Shown here: positions 1 through 56,538 of the stretch, one piece after another
Numbering within the stretch: the first letter of the stretch is position 1
Layout of the letters: each line of letters opens with the position of its first letter
Origin: Erythrobacter sp. AP23
Lineage (GTDB): Bacteria; Pseudomonadota; Alphaproteobacteria; Sphingomonadales; Sphingomonadaceae
Assembly (NCBI RefSeq): GCF_001542855.1
Contig: NZ_LNBY01000001.1
Coordinates: 806,001 to 870,000, forward strand
Direction of reading: 5' to 3'
Length of the DNA stretch: 64,000 nt
Made by a program: the position numbers and the translations under genes
The notes under the pieces: generated by a model
Seen by the model: the letters and a program-made list of their open reading frames with translations, nothing else
What the model was told of the DNA's origin: nothing
Databases searched by the model: none

Positions 1-1611
1 GGTGCGGTCGAGGTTGAGATAATCGAGCCCGACATTGTCGAGGAAGCCCAGCCGCTCGTTGATTTCCTTGAGGATGGCCTTGGCGATCTGACCCTGCGTT
101 TCGGTCAGCTGATCGGGCAGCGCGAGGAACCAGGCCTTCGCATCGGCGACGCTCATCTTGGTGGGGGTGGCGATGTCGGTGGCGTTGTCGCCCTGGCCGA
201 TCTTCACCGCCAGCGCCTTCTCGTTGAGCCGCTTGCCGTGGCAGGTCTCGCACGGCTGCGCGGTCTGGAACTTCGACAGCTCCTCGCGCATCCAGGCGCT
301 CTCGGTCTGCAGCATGCGGCGGTTGAGATTGCCGATCACGCCCTCGAACGGCTTCTTGACGGTATATTCCTTGCGCCCGTCCTTGAAGGTGAGCGGGATG
401 GCGCGGCCCTTGGTGCCGTAGAGGATGATGTCGCGAATTTCCTTGTCGAAATCCTCCCACGGGGTCTCGAGGCTGAACTCGTATTCCTTCGCAAGGCTGG
501 CGAGCACCTGCATGTAATAGGGCGATGGCGGGTTCGACTTCGCCCAGGGTACCACCGCCCCCTTCTTCAAGGACAGCGCCTCGTTCGGCACGACCAGCTG
601 CGGATCGAACAGCTGCTTCTCGCCGATCCCGTCGCAGGTCGGGCAGGCCCCCTGCGGCGCGTTGAACGAGAACAGGCGCGGCTCGACCTCCTCGATGGTG
701 AAGCCGGAGACGGGGCAGGAGAAGCGCTCGGAGAACACGATGCGGTTGGCGGGAATGCCCGCGCCCTTCATCTTGCCGCCATCTTCGGCAGGTGTCCCTG
801 CGGAGGCAGGGACCTCATTCGGGGTCGCGCCGGAACCGCCTGAGGCCCCAGCCTTCGCTGGGGCCCGTGCCATGACCTCCGCCACCGTCCCGTCCGCCAG
901 GTCGACAAAGGCCAGCCCATCGGCGAGCTTGAGCGCGGTTTCGAAACTATCGGCCAGCCGCGTTTCGAGGCCCTCCTTCACCGCCAGCCGGTCTACCACC
1001 ACCTCGATGTCGTGCTTGAATTTCTTGTCGAGCGCGGGCGCTTCCTCGATCGGGTACATCTCGCCATCGATCCGCACGCGGGTGAAACCGGCTTTCTGCC
1101 ATTCGGCCAGTTCCTTGCGGTATTCGCCCTTGCGCCCGCGCACCACTGGCGCGAGCAGGTAGAGCCGCGTGCCTTCGGGCAAAGCCATCACGCGGTCGAC
1201 CATGTTGGAGACGGTCTGCGCCTCGATCGGCAGGCCGGTGGCGGGCGAATAGGGCACCCCCACCCTCGCCCACAACAGACGCATATAGTCGTAGATCTCG
1301 GTCACCGTCGCCACGGTCGAGCGCGGGTTGCGGCTGGTAGTCTTCTGCTCGATCGAGATGGCGGGGCTGAGCCCGTCGATATGCTCGACATCGGGCTTTT
1401 GCATCATCTCGAGGAACTGCCGCGCATAGGCGCTCAGGCTCTCGACATAGCGCCGCTGCCCCTCGGCATAGATCGTGTCGAAGGCGAGGCTCGACTTGCC
1501 CGAGCCCGACAGGCCCGTGATCACGATCAGCGCATCGCGCGGCAGGTCGATATCGACCCCCTTGAGATTATGCTCGCGGGCGCCGCGGACGGAGATCTTG
1601 GTGAGAGCCAT
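1..1611 (-). CDS. uvrA: UvrABC excinuclease subunit A, 3' part outside window
   Basis: ATPase subunit that finds and verifies bulky DNA lesions in nucleotide excision repair and loads UvrB. The N-terminus reads [20 protein letters not shown], followed by Walker [10 protein letters not shown] and the Q-loop region near [10 protein letters not shown]. The first zinc module is near residues 284-310 (FSCPVSGF...GACPTCDG); the second Cys of its first pair is replaced by Ser, a variant I believe is common in alphaproteobacteria. The stop lies beyond base 1. The start is ATG at 1611, with an SOS box 12 bases upstream. Unusual: residues about 250-273 are an Ala/Gly/Pro-rich insert encoded by a bipartite palindromic repeat (794-864) that stays open in frame, just before the zinc module. 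Confidence 0.97.
794..864. repeat. Bipartite palindromic element inside uvrA coding sequence
   Basis: Two perfect hairpins with 8-bp arms and 4-nt loops: GTCCCTGC-ggag-GCAGGGAC at 794-813 and GCCCCAGC-cttc-GCTGGGGC at 845-864, 31 bp apart. They have the same geometry as intergenic copies elsewhere in the window. In the uvrA frame they read as APAKAGAS and VPASAGTP with no stop. Confidence 0.9.
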
Positions 1612-18348: not shown

Positions 18349-18352
<4 letters not shown>

Positions 18353-19239
18353 GCATCCTCGTAAACAAGAACACCAAGGTCATCACCCAGGGGATGACCG
18401 GCGACACAGGCACCTTCCACACGCAGCAGGCGCTGGCCTACGGCACACAGATGGTCGCTGGCGTGACCCCCGGAAAGGGCGGTACGACGCATATCGGCCT
18501 GCCGGTCTACAACACCGTGTCCGAAGCCAAGGCCGAAACCGGTGCGACCGCTTCTTGCATTTACGTTCCGCCGCCCTTCGCGGCGGATTCGATCCTCGAG
18601 GCGATCGATGCCGAGATGGAACTGATCGTCGCGATCACCGAAGGCATCCCCGTGCTCGACATGGTCCGCGTGAAGCGCGCTTTGGAAGGCTCGAAGTCGC
18701 GCCTGATCGGCCCGAACTGCCCCGGCGTGCTGACCCCCGGCGAATGCAAGATCGGCATCATGCCCGGCAGCATCTTCAAGAAGGGCAGTGTCGGCGTCGT
18801 CTCGCGCTCGGGCACTCTGACCTATGAAGCCGTCCACCAGACCACGCAGGTCGGCCTCGGCCAGACCACCGCGGTCGGCATCGGCGGCGATCCCGTGAAC
18901 GGCACCAATTTCATCGACGTGCTCGACCTCTTCCTCGACGACGAGGACACCAAGTCGATCATCATGATCGGCGAGATCGGTGGCTCGGCGGAAGAAGAAG
19001 CGGCCGAATTTATCAAGCAGGAAGCCGCCAAGGGGCGTTCGAAGCCGACCGTCGGCTTCATCGCCGGCCGCACCGCGCCTCCGGGCCGCCGCATGGGCCA
19101 CGCCGGTGCGATCGTCTCGGGCGGCCAGGGCGGCGCCGACGACAAGATCGCCGCGATGGAGGCTGCGGGCATCCGCGTCTCGCCCTCGCCCAGCGAACTC
19201 GGCACCACGCTCGATGCGATGCTGAAGGAGATGGCGTGA
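18349..19239 (+). CDS. sucD: Succinyl-CoA synthetase, alpha subunit
   Basis: 296 aa. With SucC it converts succinyl-CoA to succinate with formation of ATP or GTP. CoA-binding N-terminal domain ([28 protein letters not shown]), [20 protein letters not shown], and the phospho-acceptor His in [13 protein letters not shown]. No sucC is present anywhere in the window, so the beta subunit must be encoded elsewhere. Confidence 0.96.
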
Positions 19240-19252
19240 CGAAAGACCATGA

Positions 19253-19322
19253 GTCCCAGCGCAGGCTGGGACCTCCCTCGGCCTCTTAGGAGATTGACGG
19301 AGTCCCCACCTTGCGTTGGGGA
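19253..19322. repeat. Bipartite palindromic element, sucD / GIY-YIG junction
   Basis: Hairpin A GTCCCAGC-gcag-GCTGGGAC (19253-19272, perfect) and a degraded hairpin B TCCCCA...TGGGGA (19303-19322), separated by 30 bp. Same architecture as the copy in uvrA. Confidence 0.8.
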
Positions 19323-19340
19323 TCATGTTCGGAGGAACGG

Positions 19341-19625
19341 TTGAAGACTGGTTTCGTCTATATCCTGACGAACCGAAAGGACGGAGTGCTCTATATCGGC
19401 GTAACCAATGACTTGGCGACACGCATCGAGCAGCATTGCTCCGGCGCGGTTTCCAGCTTCACGAAGAAGTATCAGCGTCATCGGCTCGTCTGGCTCGAGC
19501 AGTTCGAGAATATTCATGACGCCCGCGAAGTCGAAAGGCGGATGAAAGCATGGAAGCGCGGATGGAAGATAAGGCGCATAGAAGAGATGAACCCGGATTG
19601 GGACGATCTTGCGCTGCGTCTTTAG
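19341..19625 (+). CDS. Single-domain GIY-YIG nuclease family protein
   Basis: About 94 aa, essentially one GIY-YIG domain: FVYIL (the GIY position, 5-9), YIG (18-20), Arg28 in DLATRIEQH and His32, then EVERRMKAWKRGWKIRRIEEMNPDW with the usual acidic and Asn residues. The family cuts DNA; many such short chromosomal copies have unknown roles. TTG 19341 is chosen because GGAGGA lies at 19331-19336. It is inserted between sucD and sucA and bracketed by palindromic elements (19253-19322 and 19646-19665), which suggests it arrived as, or with, a mobile unit. Confidence 0.82.
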   Translation: MKTGFVYILTNRKDGVLYIGVTNDLATRIEQHCSGAVSSFTKKYQRHRLVWLEQFENIHDAREVERRMKAWKRGWKIRRIEEMNPDWDDLALRL

Positions 19626-19645
19626 GTCGCGCCAACCCGAAGGAG

Positions 19646-19665
19646 GCCCCAGCCTGCGCTGGGGC
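19646..19665. repeat. Palindromic half-element directly before sucA
   Basis: Perfect hairpin GCCCCAGC-ctgc-GCTGGGGC, of the B type found as the second half of bipartite elements. It lies between an AAGGAGG sequence (19640-19646) and the sucA ATG (19668), so it may affect translation initiation. Confidence 0.85.
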
Positions 19666-19667
19666 TC

Positions 19668-22514
19668 ATGAGTGACGTAACGATGGGTAACGAAAGCCAC
19701 GATTTCCTGCCCGAGATGGGCGACCAGGACGGCCCGCAGCAGGGTCCGAGCTGGGGCAACCCCAACTGGCTGGCCGAAGTGGTCGACAGCGGCGCCGACC
19801 TGACCGCTGCGCTCGACCCGACGCAGATGCGCGTGGCCATCGCGCAGGCGGCGGAAAAGGCGGGCAAGGCGCTCGATCCCAAGGCCATCGAGCAGGCCGC
19901 CGACGATTCGATCCGCGCCATGCTGCTGGTGCGTCTCTACCGTGTGCGCGGCCATCTCGCCGCCAATCTCGACCCGCTCGGCCTGTCGAACCGCGACGTA
20001 CCCGAAGACCTGACGCTCGAATGGCATGGCTTTGCCGAGCAGGAAGACAAGGAAGTCTACGTCGGCGGCGTGTTCGGTTTCGAATGGGTCACGGTGCGCG
20101 AACTCTACCGCGTGCTGCGCGAGACCTATTGCGGCAATGTCGGGCTCGAATACATGCATATCTCGGACACGGAGGAGCGCCGCTTCCTCCAGGACAAGTT
20201 CGAGACGCCCGAGGACACGATCCAGTTCACTCCGGAAGGCAAGCGCGCGATCCTCGCCTCGGTGATCCGCGGCGAGCAGTACGAAGCCTTCCTCGGCAAG
20301 AAATACGTCGGCACCAAGCGGTTCGGTCTCGATGGCGGCGAATCGATGATCCCCGCGCTCGAGGCGGTGATCAAATATGGCGGCCAGCTCGGCGTGCGCG
20401 AGATCATCTACGGCATGGCCCACCGCGGCCGACTCAACGTCCTCGCCAACGTGATGGGCAAGCCCTACAAGGTCATCTTCCACGAATTCTCGGGCGGCAG
20501 CGCCAATCCCGACGATGTCGGCGGTTCGGGCGATGTGAAATACCATCTCGGCACCAGCACCGACCGCGAATTCGACGGCATCAACGTGCATATGTCGCTG
20601 GTCCCCAACCCCAGCCATCTCGAGGCGGTGAACCCCGTCGTGCTCGGAAAATCCAGGGCGCAGCAGGCGATCCGCGACGATCTGAAGCAGCACGAGCAGG
20701 TCCTGCCCGTCCTCCTCCACGGCGATGCGGCCTTTGCCGGCCAGGGCATCGTGTGGGAATGCCTCGGCTTCTCGGGCGTGCGCGGCTACAACACCGGCGG
20801 CTGCCTGCACTTCGTCATCAACAACCAGATCGGCTTCACGACGAGCCCGCAGTTCGCGCGTTCGTCGCCCTATCCCAGCGATGTGGCCAAGGGCGTCCAG
20901 GCGCCGATCCTCCACGTCAATGGCGACGATCCCGAAGCGGTGACCTTCGCCTGCAAGCTGGCGATCGAATACCGCCAGACCTTCGGCCGCGACATCGTGA
21001 TCGACATGTGGTGCTATCGCCGCTTCGGTCACAATGAGGGCGACGAGCCCAAGTTCACCCAGCCGCTGATGTATGACGAAATCCGCCAGCACCCCAAGGT
21101 GAGCAAGATCTACACGGCGCGCCTCGAGGAAGAGGGGGTGATCGAAAAAGGCTATGCCGACGATCTGACCGCCGAGTTCACCGAACTGCTCGAACAGGAA
21201 TTCGCGGCCGCCAAAGATTACAAGCCCGACCAGGCCGACTGGTTCGGGGGCCGCTGGTCGGGCATGAACAAGCCTGCCGATCCCGAAACCGCGCGCCGCA
21301 ATGTCGAAACGGCGATCGAGAAGAAGCTGTTCGACAGCCTCGGTCGCACGCTGACCTCGGTTCCCGACGACCTTACGATCCACAAGACCCTGGGCCGCGT
21401 GCTCAAGGCCAAGGAAGACATGTTCGCCAAGGGCAAAGGGTTCGACTGGGCCACCGCGGAGGCGCTGGCGTTCGGGAGCCTCGTCACCGAAGGCTTCGGC
21501 GTGCGGCTGTCGGGCCAGGATTCGGGACGCGGCACCTTCAGCCAGCGCCATGCCGTCTGGGTCGACCAGAAGGACGAGCGCAAATACATCCCGCTGACCA
21601 CGCTGCCGCATGGCAAGTTCGAAGTCTATGACAGCCCCTTGAGCGAATACGGCGTGCTCGGCTTCGAGTACGGTTTCGCCATGGCCGATCCGAAGAGCCT
21701 GGTGATGTGGGAGGCGCAGTTCGGCGATTTCGCCAATGGCGCGCAGATCATGATCGACCAGTTCATCGCCGCAGGCGAGGTCAAGTGGCTGCGCGCCAAC
21801 GGCCTCGTGCTGCTGCTGCCGCATGGCTATGAAGGCCAGGGTCCCGAGCACAGCTCTGCCCGCCTCGAACGCTTCCTGCAGCTTTGCGCGAATGACAATA
21901 TCCAGGTGCTCAACATCACCACGCCGGCGAACTACTTCCACGTGCTTCGCCGCCAGATGCTGCGCAGTTTCCGCAAGCCGATGGTCATCATGACGCCCAA
22001 GTCGTTGCTGCGCCATCCGCTGGCCAAATCGAGCGCCGAAGAATTCATGGGCGATCACCACTTCATGCGGATCAAGTCCGACATGACCGAGATTGCCGAC
22101 GAGAAGGTGAAGCGCCTCGTGCTGTGCAGCGGCAAGGTCGCCTACGATCTGATGCAGCGCCGCGACGAAGCTGGCTTGGAAGACGTCTCGATCGTGCGGA
22201 TCGAGCAGATCTACCCCTTCCCGGGCGAACCGCTGGCGGTGCGCCTCGAACGCATGAGCAATCTCGAAACCGTGGTCTGGTGCCAGGAAGAGCCGAAGAA
22301 CAATGGAGCCTGGTTCTTCGTCGACCGCCTGATCGAGGAATCGCTTACCGCCGCGGGCAAGGATGGCATGCGCCCCTGCTACGCCGGGCGCGAAGTCGCC
22401 GCCTCGCCCGCCACGGGCTATGCCAGCCGCCACCAGGTGCAGCAGGAAGCTCTCGTCAACATCGCGCTGGGCCTGAACGGGTCCGACCCCAAAGTCCGCA
22501 GCGACTGCAACTGA
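19668..22514 (+). CDS. sucA: 2-oxoglutarate dehydrogenase E1 component
   Basis: 948-aa thiamine-diphosphate enzyme that decarboxylates 2-oxoglutarate and hands the succinyl group to SucB. It shows [19 protein letters not shown], the ThDP region [38 protein letters not shown] and the C-terminal [15 protein letters not shown]. Start assigned to ATG 19668; ATG 19683 (MGNESHDF) is an alternative, since a hairpin separates the Shine-Dalgarno-like AAGGAGG from 19668. Confidence 0.97.
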
Positions 22515-32881: not shown

Positions 32882-32968
32882 CGTATCTTGTCCTTCGTTC
32901 GATAGGGGCCCGTTCTAGGTAGCCCGTAGCCGGTGACCGTTTTGGCCGTCACCTTCGCCCATTCATGC

Positions 32969-33037
32969 GTCCCAGCGCAGGCTGGGACCTCCATCGGCAA
33001 AGCGCCGGTGGAAGGAGGCCCCAGCCTTCGCCGGGGC
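32969..33037. repeat. Bipartite palindromic element between rpoA and rplQ
   Basis: Hairpin A GTCCCAGC-gcag-GCTGGGAC (32969-32988, perfect) and hairpin B GCCCCAGC-cttc-GCCGGGGC (33018-33037, one mismatch), 29 bp apart. Both will be present in the rpoA-rplQ transcript. Confidence 0.85.
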
Positions 33038-56295: not shown

Positions 56296-56394
56296 AGATT
56301 CTCTTCTCTTCACCGTGTGCCCGGCCCGGATGGGCCAAAGCGTTGAAGGTGACGACTAATGGGATGATCGGTGGTGTGTCTGGCTTAGCCCGTC

Positions 56395-56468
56395 ATCCCA
56401 GCGGAAGCTGGGATCGCCATCCACAAGCGTCGGCGCCTGCGGAACGAGATTCCAGCTTTCGCTGGAAT
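56395..56468. repeat. Bipartite palindromic element upstream of rpsL
   Basis: Two perfect hairpins: ATCCCAGC-ggaa-GCTGGGAT (56395-56414) and ATTCCAGC-tttc-GCTGGAAT (56449-56468), 34 bp apart; outer bases CGTC and GACG extend the symmetry. Confidence 0.88.
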
Positions 56469-56538
56469 GACGTCTAAGCTGAAACACTCCACCCATCGGG
56501 CCCACACGGCCACCGGGTTACTTTGACGGCTGCCCCAA

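Follow-up and report, generated by a model that had tools for sequence, protein, structure and literature searches.

The Ssn nuclease family and the Neisseria NTS repeat, said to have been described by Chenal et al. in Nat Commun in 2025, reportedly form the same kind of partnership as the one considered here. Ssn is said to be a small GIY-YIG nuclease of wide distribution with a multicopy, genome-wide cognate repeat; it reportedly cleaves single-stranded DNA site-specifically and affects natural transformation in Neisseria.

Repeats of the REP class are common in bacteria, and those of the GTAG type have a partner enzyme. In published accounts of this system the gene of the RAYT is flanked by the REP on which its product supposedly acts (PMC2817692, PMC3116915), and gene-less inverted REP pairs (REPINs) are found elsewhere in the genome (Nunvar 2010, PMC2817692; Bertels and Rainey 2011, PMC3116915). 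The CGTC REPs are mostly alphaproteobacterial and are described as having a stem of 8–9 bp, a loop of 4–5 nt, a tail that is mostly CCA and head-to-head dimers (Di Nocera et al. 2013, PMC3733652). As reported in that 2013 survey, no partner enzyme and no associated transposase gene were found for this class, and the string GIY is absent from its main text (PMC3733652).

The window analyzed here (the whole stretch of 64,000 nucleotides from Erythrobacter sp. AP23) carries a GIY-YIG nuclease gene bracketed by inverted REPs. The candidate partner is a GIY-YIG gene, where the CGTC survey reported no partner transposase (PMC3733652). As in the published outline of the RAYT system, the gene is flanked by a dispersed REP and gene-less inverted pairs occur elsewhere; unlike in that system, the enzyme is of the GIY-YIG type instead of a tyrosine transposase and the tag is a different one. 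The RAYT profile PF01797 had no match in the genome, with the same search positive in 5 of 14 control genomes, and a RAYT was thereby ruled out as driver of the window REPs. The layout is RAYT-like with another enzyme class, an analogy that the initial annotation had drawn.

The window nuclease resembles Ssn in having a GIY-YIG domain with conserved active-site residues (PF01541) and a multicopy cognate repeat (24 REPIN pairs of AGGC type in the host genome, G000, against none for the reversed pattern, and 28 arms of the window's REP family). A homologue in a Neisseria MAG (L128, 52% identity) has CGTC-tagged hairpins on its flanks. Features that may go beyond Ssn are the nine members with different palindromes in one genome, the REP/REPIN layout, long-term residence within the suc operon and the relation between residues and bases described below. 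We place the nuclease as an Ssn-like, REP-dedicated enzyme, laid out like the RAYT-REP pairing but without a RAYT. By analogy with Ssn and NTS the partnership is probably known in kind. A literature search, whose reach did not extend to the Ssn paper, found neither a link between GIY-YIG genes and the REP superfamily nor a residue-base relation.

Organization of the element

The initial annotation had read the order hairpin A, hairpin B', GIY-YIG ORF, hairpin B and sucA at 19253-19665. All parts were found at that site; the range proved 5 bp too short at either end, the element extending from 19248 to 19670. Its features and neighbours are as follows.

18349..19239, plus strand: ORF of 296 aa, the 5' neighbour, taken to be sucD as in the initial annotation
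19248..19670, plus strand: whole element of 423 bp, inverted REPs around the nuclease gene, in the sucD-sucA gap
19248..19271, plus strand: REP hairpin A, with tag CATG, stem GTCCCAGC, loop GCAG, stem GCTGGGAC and tail CCTC
19302..19324, minus strand: REP hairpin B', degenerate, inverted relative to A and 30–33 bp away from it
19333..19337, plus strand: GGAGG, putative ribosome-binding site of the nuclease ORF by its sequence
19341..19625, plus strand: GIY-YIG nuclease ORF of 94 codons with a TTG start (PF01541)
19647..19670, minus strand: REP hairpin B, inverted relative to A
19683..22514, plus strand: sucA, the 3' neighbour, whose ORF is listed from 19668

Hairpin A has an 8-bp stem (GTCCCAGC/GCTGGGAC) and a 4-nt loop. 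The outer arms of the element are 34-nt inverted repeats, 91% complementary and each a hairpin, the arm on the B side being 19637-19670. A and B' form a REPIN-like pair; the gap of about 30 bp that had been noted for such pairs is 33 bp (32971/33020) and 35 bp (796/847) elsewhere in the window, compared with 30–33 bp here. A GGAGG before a TTG start is also present in L043, and the sucA start is probably the ATG at 19683 (MGNESHDF, the same in L041) rather than 19668.

The nuclease ORF was matched to PF01541 by profile search (E 9.6e-16), and NCBIfam profiles gave weak off-target matches only. The residues G15, Y18, R28, H32 and E65, which are the catalytic residues of the GIY-YIG domain, were found to be invariant among 25 aligned family members. 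An AlphaFold2 model was obtained with a pLDDT of 89.7 and a pTM of 0.82. The closest solved sequences are the UPF0213 proteins BH0048 and EF2693 (1zg2 and 1ywl; E 1.6e-13 for 1zg2), and 1zg2 likewise ranks first among the fold matches, ahead of Slx1 chains. The titles of the UPF0213 and Slx1 structures mention no repeat partner, and according to such titles Slx1 works with Slx4 on branched DNA.

The window hairpins share the geometry of the CGTC superfamily as published, with an 8-bp stem, a 4-nt loop and an inverted pair, but not its CGTC/TGTC tag: A and B have CATG, and orthologues have CGTGAG, TTGTGAG or GGTGAG. Because these tags are divergent, the window hairpins are classed by sequence as REP-like but outside the strict CGTC class.

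Repeats of the same family in the window and in relatives

When at most 2 mismatches were allowed, the hairpin core CCCAGCNNAGGCTGGG had 14 matches at 9 places in the window, compared with 0.79 expected, a number reached in 0 of 100 shuffles; matches outnumber places as a palindrome can match on both strands. A loose scan of the window for any tagged hairpin gave 13 hits, which is not above chance (4–17 in 20 block shuffles). The evidence is consequently the shared stem sequence and the other genomes, and not hairpins as such. Three sites in the window carry pairs without a nuclease gene.

796..862, no strand assigned: gene-less REPIN of the same family (core match), with arms at G000:C1:806804 and 806842
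32964..33037, no strand assigned: gene-less REPIN of the same family (core match)
56391..56472, no strand assigned: inverted pair of CGTC-tagged REPs with stems ATCCCAGC and ATTCCAGC

The last of these is close to the type around another family locus of the host, L002. At the REPIN site 32964, 12 of the 13 relatives examined were without a pair of this family; the remaining one, G047, has a C-type pair as counterpart of the A-type pair of the host. The junctions of the relatives lacking the pair are too divergent for the ends of the element to be read.

Association of nuclease genes and palindromes

Bracketing was defined as an ungapped inverted-repeat score of at least 15, a cut-off chosen after controls were seen to reach at most 14. 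Relatives of the family were found in 37 of 60 genus genomes, and 34 of the 38 genus loci retrieved, out of more than 100 places listed, were bracketed (the exceptions being L005, L042, L044 and L061), compared with 0 of 148 shifted windows and 0 of 207 sucD-locus windows. Beyond the genus, bracketing was found in 57 of 80 named loci, which were the best 80 of at least 561 confirmed stretches and include Neisseria, Bacteroidota and Patescibacteria (controls 0/294), and in 44 of 69 further phylum-wide loci (controls 0/55), comprising 29 outside G000 and 40 listed places taken approximately by rank, with some omissions. Bracketing was likewise seen in 21 of 22 loci (controls 0/44) of a second clade (GHT..KxWSRAKK), which is more distant and has mainly CCGTTC- or CCGCTC-tagged palindromes; the 22 are L008 and L009, which are also among the 38 genus loci, and 20 low-scoring places. 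Over all sets no control window was bracketed (0/748). The bracketing repeat of L089 (around 2001-2264) is unusually long, with a 67-nt arm and a score of 49.

The palindromes around most nuclease loci resemble the CGTC REP superfamily in sequence. Strict CGTC/TGTC-tagged hairpins facing the gene on both sides were found at 71 of 118 loci and in 0 of 220 control windows, and on at least one side at 97 of 118 loci compared with 13 of 220; in the phylum-wide set a tagged REP was on both sides in only 25 of 69 loci. The 5' hairpins identified at 83 of the 118 loci have loops of 4 nt (64) or 5 nt (19) and stems of 7–9 bp, with the tail CCA in 45.

The initial annotation had suspected a nuclease-palindrome partnership, for which it proposed that GIY-YIG genes should lie beside these palindromes more often than by chance. 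They do so far beyond chance, and in a genome in which no gene of the RAYT type (PF01797) was found. Its suggestion that the partnership is undescribed is doubtful given the one reported for Ssn and NTS.

The copy number of the palindrome follows the cognate nuclease. This was seen with the group-II nuclease, defined by an identity to L002 of 70% or more, and its palindrome, counted as an exact 16-mer, of which 4–20 copies were present in all 11 genomes with the nuclease. Among the 49 genomes without it only 3 had 4 copies or more (Fisher p 1e-9); these exceptions, G005, G006 and G046, have 6–8 group-II palindromes and are without a nuclease of 70% identity. The palindrome was absent from 22 of the 23 genomes without any family member, and the reversed pattern, used as control, gave 2 hits in the 60 genomes. 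The number of REPIN patterns also rose with the number of nucleases over the 60 genomes, with a Spearman coefficient of 0.48 (p 1e-4) compared with 0.13 (p 0.31) for the control pattern; there was a mean of 8.6 AGGC-type pairs in the 13 genomes with at least 4 members (control 1.2) compared with 1.4 in the 23 genomes without members (control 1.0). Shared ancestry is left in these copy-number statistics. Four genomes have many members but few AGGC-type pairs: G005, G041 and G051 have 8–20 group-II palindromes instead, and G028 has four family members and neither of the counted palindrome types. In G046 the sucD-sucA nuclease is frameshifted (L043, G046:C31:196860-197135, with matches in two frames), and exact matches to the family pattern were limited genome-wide to the two REPs of the element itself. 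Such scarcity is what a decay of REPs in the absence of the nuclease would predict.

Nuclease residues and stem sequence

The relation between protein and hairpin was analyzed in those of the 118 loci that have hairpins on both sides, which left 76 (61 with 4-nt loops) after removal of 42, by scanning all protein columns against two hairpin features. Column 70 was found to carry 1.23 bits of information on stem base -3, the third from the loop (z 17.8, 76 loci), with columns 16 and 72 ranking next. In the 61 loci with 4-nt loops, K70 with N72 was accompanied by C in 22 of 22 cases, A with K by A in 10 of 10, R with K by T in 5 of 5, K with K by T in 4 of 5 and E70 by G in 8 of 9, and a rule based on one residue was correct in 51 of the 57 loci that it covers. 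The window nuclease carries A70 and K72 at these positions.

For held-out loci, 30 were planned and 40 added before scoring. Hairpins were present on both sides in 25, of which the 7 with 5-nt loops were left unscored and 18 were scored. The rule, fixed beforehand, was correct in 12 of the 14 loci covered (4.3 expected; permutation p 1e-4) and wrong in the other 2, with 4 of the 18 outside its coverage. Assigning to each locus the base that goes with its closest training protein was correct in 13 of the same 14 loci; since this baseline is as good as the rule, the held-out test alone does not single out residue 70. No held-out row is identical to a training row, the nearest reported being L184, L196 and L227 (93, 84, and 82% identical to L130, respectively); with rows of at least 80% identity removed the rule was correct in 9 of 11, and in a set non-redundant at 70% in 10 of 12. 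A two-residue table made from the training loci was correct in 10 of 10 covered among 17 held-out loci, scored after the held-out printout had been seen.

What points to residues 70 and 72 is the high information of their columns, their joint changes with the base on the tree and independent pairs. On a tree built without columns 67-75, which is weak as the protein is short, the stem base changed at least 22 times (36.9 when shuffled), residue 70 changed 22 times, and only 27 changes are needed to account for the two together. The association of C with K70 was recovered in 7 phylogenetically independent pairs on well-supported branches (6.6 concordant and 0.0 discordant on average; median p 0.016) and that of C with N72 at p 0.03; for A, G and T the independent pairs were too few for significance. 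It is likely, as far as sequences can tell, that 70 and 72 are the exact recognition residues. In the AlphaFold2 model the helix 58-70 terminates at residue 70, and the turn leading into the helix 73-83 contains residue 72. Other hairpin features were also compared with protein similarity: the nearest protein of less than 70% identity shares the loop class in 60 of 76 loci (0.68 expected), a weak relation, and the inner stem triplet in 35 of 76 (0.21 expected).

Natural variants at the sucD-sucA site show nuclease and hairpin changed together at one site. There, A or S at position 70 goes with a CCCAGC 5' hairpin (the host, L043, L069 and L070), while K70 with N72 goes with CCCCGC (L040, L041, L071, L073 and L074); the 3' hairpin of L069 is of the CCCTGC type. 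REPs outside the element differ likewise. In G000 (A70, K72) 15 of 26 are A-type, with 3 C-type, 6 T-type and 2 G-type, while G039 (K70, N72) has 29, all C-type but for a single A-type (28 and 1; Fisher p 1.6e-8 for A- vs. C-type). G047 (K70, N72) is mixed, with 4 A-type, 9 C-type and 1 G-type of 14. This co-variation suggests that the nuclease recognizes its hairpin.

Distribution and history of the sucD-sucA copy

A relative of sucD was found in 56 of the 60 genus genomes. Among 30 genus sucD loci, 29 were without a nuclease ORF at the site (including L023, which has no sucA downstream), and three further genomes carry the ORF between sucD and sucA, namely G039, G046 and G047. The initial annotation had held that its case would fall with palindromes that show no enrichment of GIY-YIG genes or with an ORF fixed in all relatives; the former are enriched, and the ORF is present in some relatives only, 29 of 30 loci lacking it.

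The initial annotation had further traced the extra hairpin B to a duplication upon arrival of the ORF, a reading that is not supported. L040, L041, L043, L070 and L071 show the order A-B'-ORF-B between sucD and sucA as well, and L069 has A-ORF-B (L073 and L074 were left out of this comparison); a recent insertion with duplication of hairpin B is thereby ruled out. The recurrence in other genomes points to an old arrangement of this lineage.

Relatives without the ORF have gaps of 18–91 bp with short unrelated sequence between sucD and sucA, and no clean empty site was found among them. The L002 junction likewise gave no clean empty allele in relatives, which have other REPINs or other sequence instead, and no target duplication, as would mark an insertion sequence or MITE, was found at either site. 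The relatives L151, L153, L154, L155 and L158 have at the L002 site another REPIN type, like GTCATTGCGAGCGAAGCGAAGCAATCC.

A single clade with a support of 96/93 unites eight of the sucD-sucA nucleases (the frameshifted L043 was left out of the tree) and spans Erythrobacteraceae, Novosphingobium and others. On the sucA tree of the hosts, the presence of the nuclease requires at least 3 changes, with 5 as the best estimate, and the nucleases of G039 and G047 are sisters (96/93) in hosts that are not sisters. The trees rest on about 90 (nuclease) and 420 (sucA) columns. A free-standing homing endonuclease would occupy the same site and cleave the empty allele; observed here are a same-site clade and incongruence between host and nuclease. 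The sucD-sucA copy looks like an old resident with patchy loss and horizontal exchange, and not like a fresh insertion. Related nucleases were also observed just 5' of sucD (L094, L096 and L100) or after sucB (L042 and L044), and the suc operon region seems to collect these nucleases.

Proposed mechanism and alternative explanations

With moderate confidence we favor an Ssn-like GIY-YIG nuclease that recognizes and cuts the REP hairpin that brackets its gene and is scattered in the genome, cleavage and mobility being inferred. Such a dedicated nuclease may read the stem near the loop through the turn between helices 58-70 and 73-83, as the co-variation suggests. By analogy it would nick the hairpin in single-stranded DNA, either on the lagging strand or in incoming DNA, a step proposed from the conserved active-site residues and the reported work on Ssn. 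Repair or recombination at the nicked REP would then let REPs, REPINs and the nuclease element spread and persist; the gene with its two REPs would be an autonomous unit and the gene-less REPINs its miniature derivatives.

The same cut could serve another purpose. A nuclease acting at the REPs of single strands that enter the cell would shape transformation or GTA exchange, and REPs would pile up because exchange ends at them. This reading overlaps with the favored one and differs in the purpose of the cut; it draws on the reported effect of Ssn on natural transformation in Neisseria, on a paralogue (L007) lying between terminase and portal genes and on the fact that G039 and G047, which are not sister hosts, have sister nucleases between sucD and sucA, and we regard it as possible though tentative. 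Less probable is a transposon-like system, with the nuclease as the enzyme that moves the REP-bracketed unit by excision and insertion, the part that RAYTs supposedly play for GTAG REPs. A gene between inverted REPs that resemble dispersed gene-less pairs, a window REPIN missing from 12 of the 13 relatives examined and the several nuclease types together in one genome all agree with it. Target duplications and clean empty sites were, however, not found at sucD-sucA or L002, the sucD-sucA lineage keeps one site across genera (96/93), which is unlike free transposition, and GIY-YIG enzymes are not known to be transposases.

It could also be argued that GIY-YIG genes merely share intergenic gaps that collect REPs, with related genes keeping related REPs by descent; related loci do share gene and REP, and the nearest protein predicts the base as well as the residue rule (13 against 12 of 14). 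This is very improbable given that none of the 748 control windows was bracketed, that the stem base, on the tree lacking columns 67-75, changed at least 22 times and mostly together with residue 70 (which itself changed 22 times, 27 changes being needed for both), and that, outside the element, differences between REP populations parallel those between the resident nucleases. We give equally little credence to a role at the RNA level, in which the hairpins stabilize or terminate the suc mRNA and the nuclease either has RNA as its substrate or has nothing to do with them. Hairpins A and B lie between operon genes and are stable as RNA (-17.1 and -18.7 kcal/mol, respectively), but such a role leaves the co-variation of nuclease and palindrome and the dispersed genomic copies unexplained.

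Taken as one proposition, we lean only slightly towards the reading that CGTC REPs and the CCGTTC/CCGCTC class have GIY-YIG partners, that a two-residue code operates (positions 70 and 72: A with K for A, K with N for C, R or K with K for T, and E for G) and that REP populations follow the resident nuclease. If true, this would explain what drives CGTC REPs, the question raised by the 2013 survey, and would constitute a non-transposase way of maintaining genomic repeats. It provides a candidate partner for these REPs and a candidate recognition rule that is testable with synthetic oligonucleotides; if the code holds, single-strand nucleases with specificity predictable from two residues would be available.

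Other family members in the host genome

Nine members of the nuclease family, including the sucD-sucA ORF, were found in the host genome. Six (L001-L004, L008 and L009) have inverted repeats of 28–35 nt on either side, with differing palindromes; L006 and L007 also pass the inverted-repeat score, and L005 has a pair on one side only. The member in L006 (433-2876) lies between two ORFs that are, by their sequences, putative ruvA and ruvB, and its stop codon is inside the palindrome. L009 (1-1503) adjoins an ORF resembling, and presumably encoding, the dnaG primase. L007:53-3052 (G000:C14) holds a member with REPs between a phage-type terminase large subunit gene (PF17289, PF03237) and a portal gene (PF04860), surroundings that are possibly a prophage or a gene transfer agent cluster. 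On the minus strand of L008 (517-1761) a frame of 415 aa combines GIY-YIG and RNA pseudouridylate synthase (PF00849) domains, which by its sequence may be either a real fusion or an overlapping start. The frame reads through the REP after the GIY-YIG part, and five relatives have frames of 415–419 aa.
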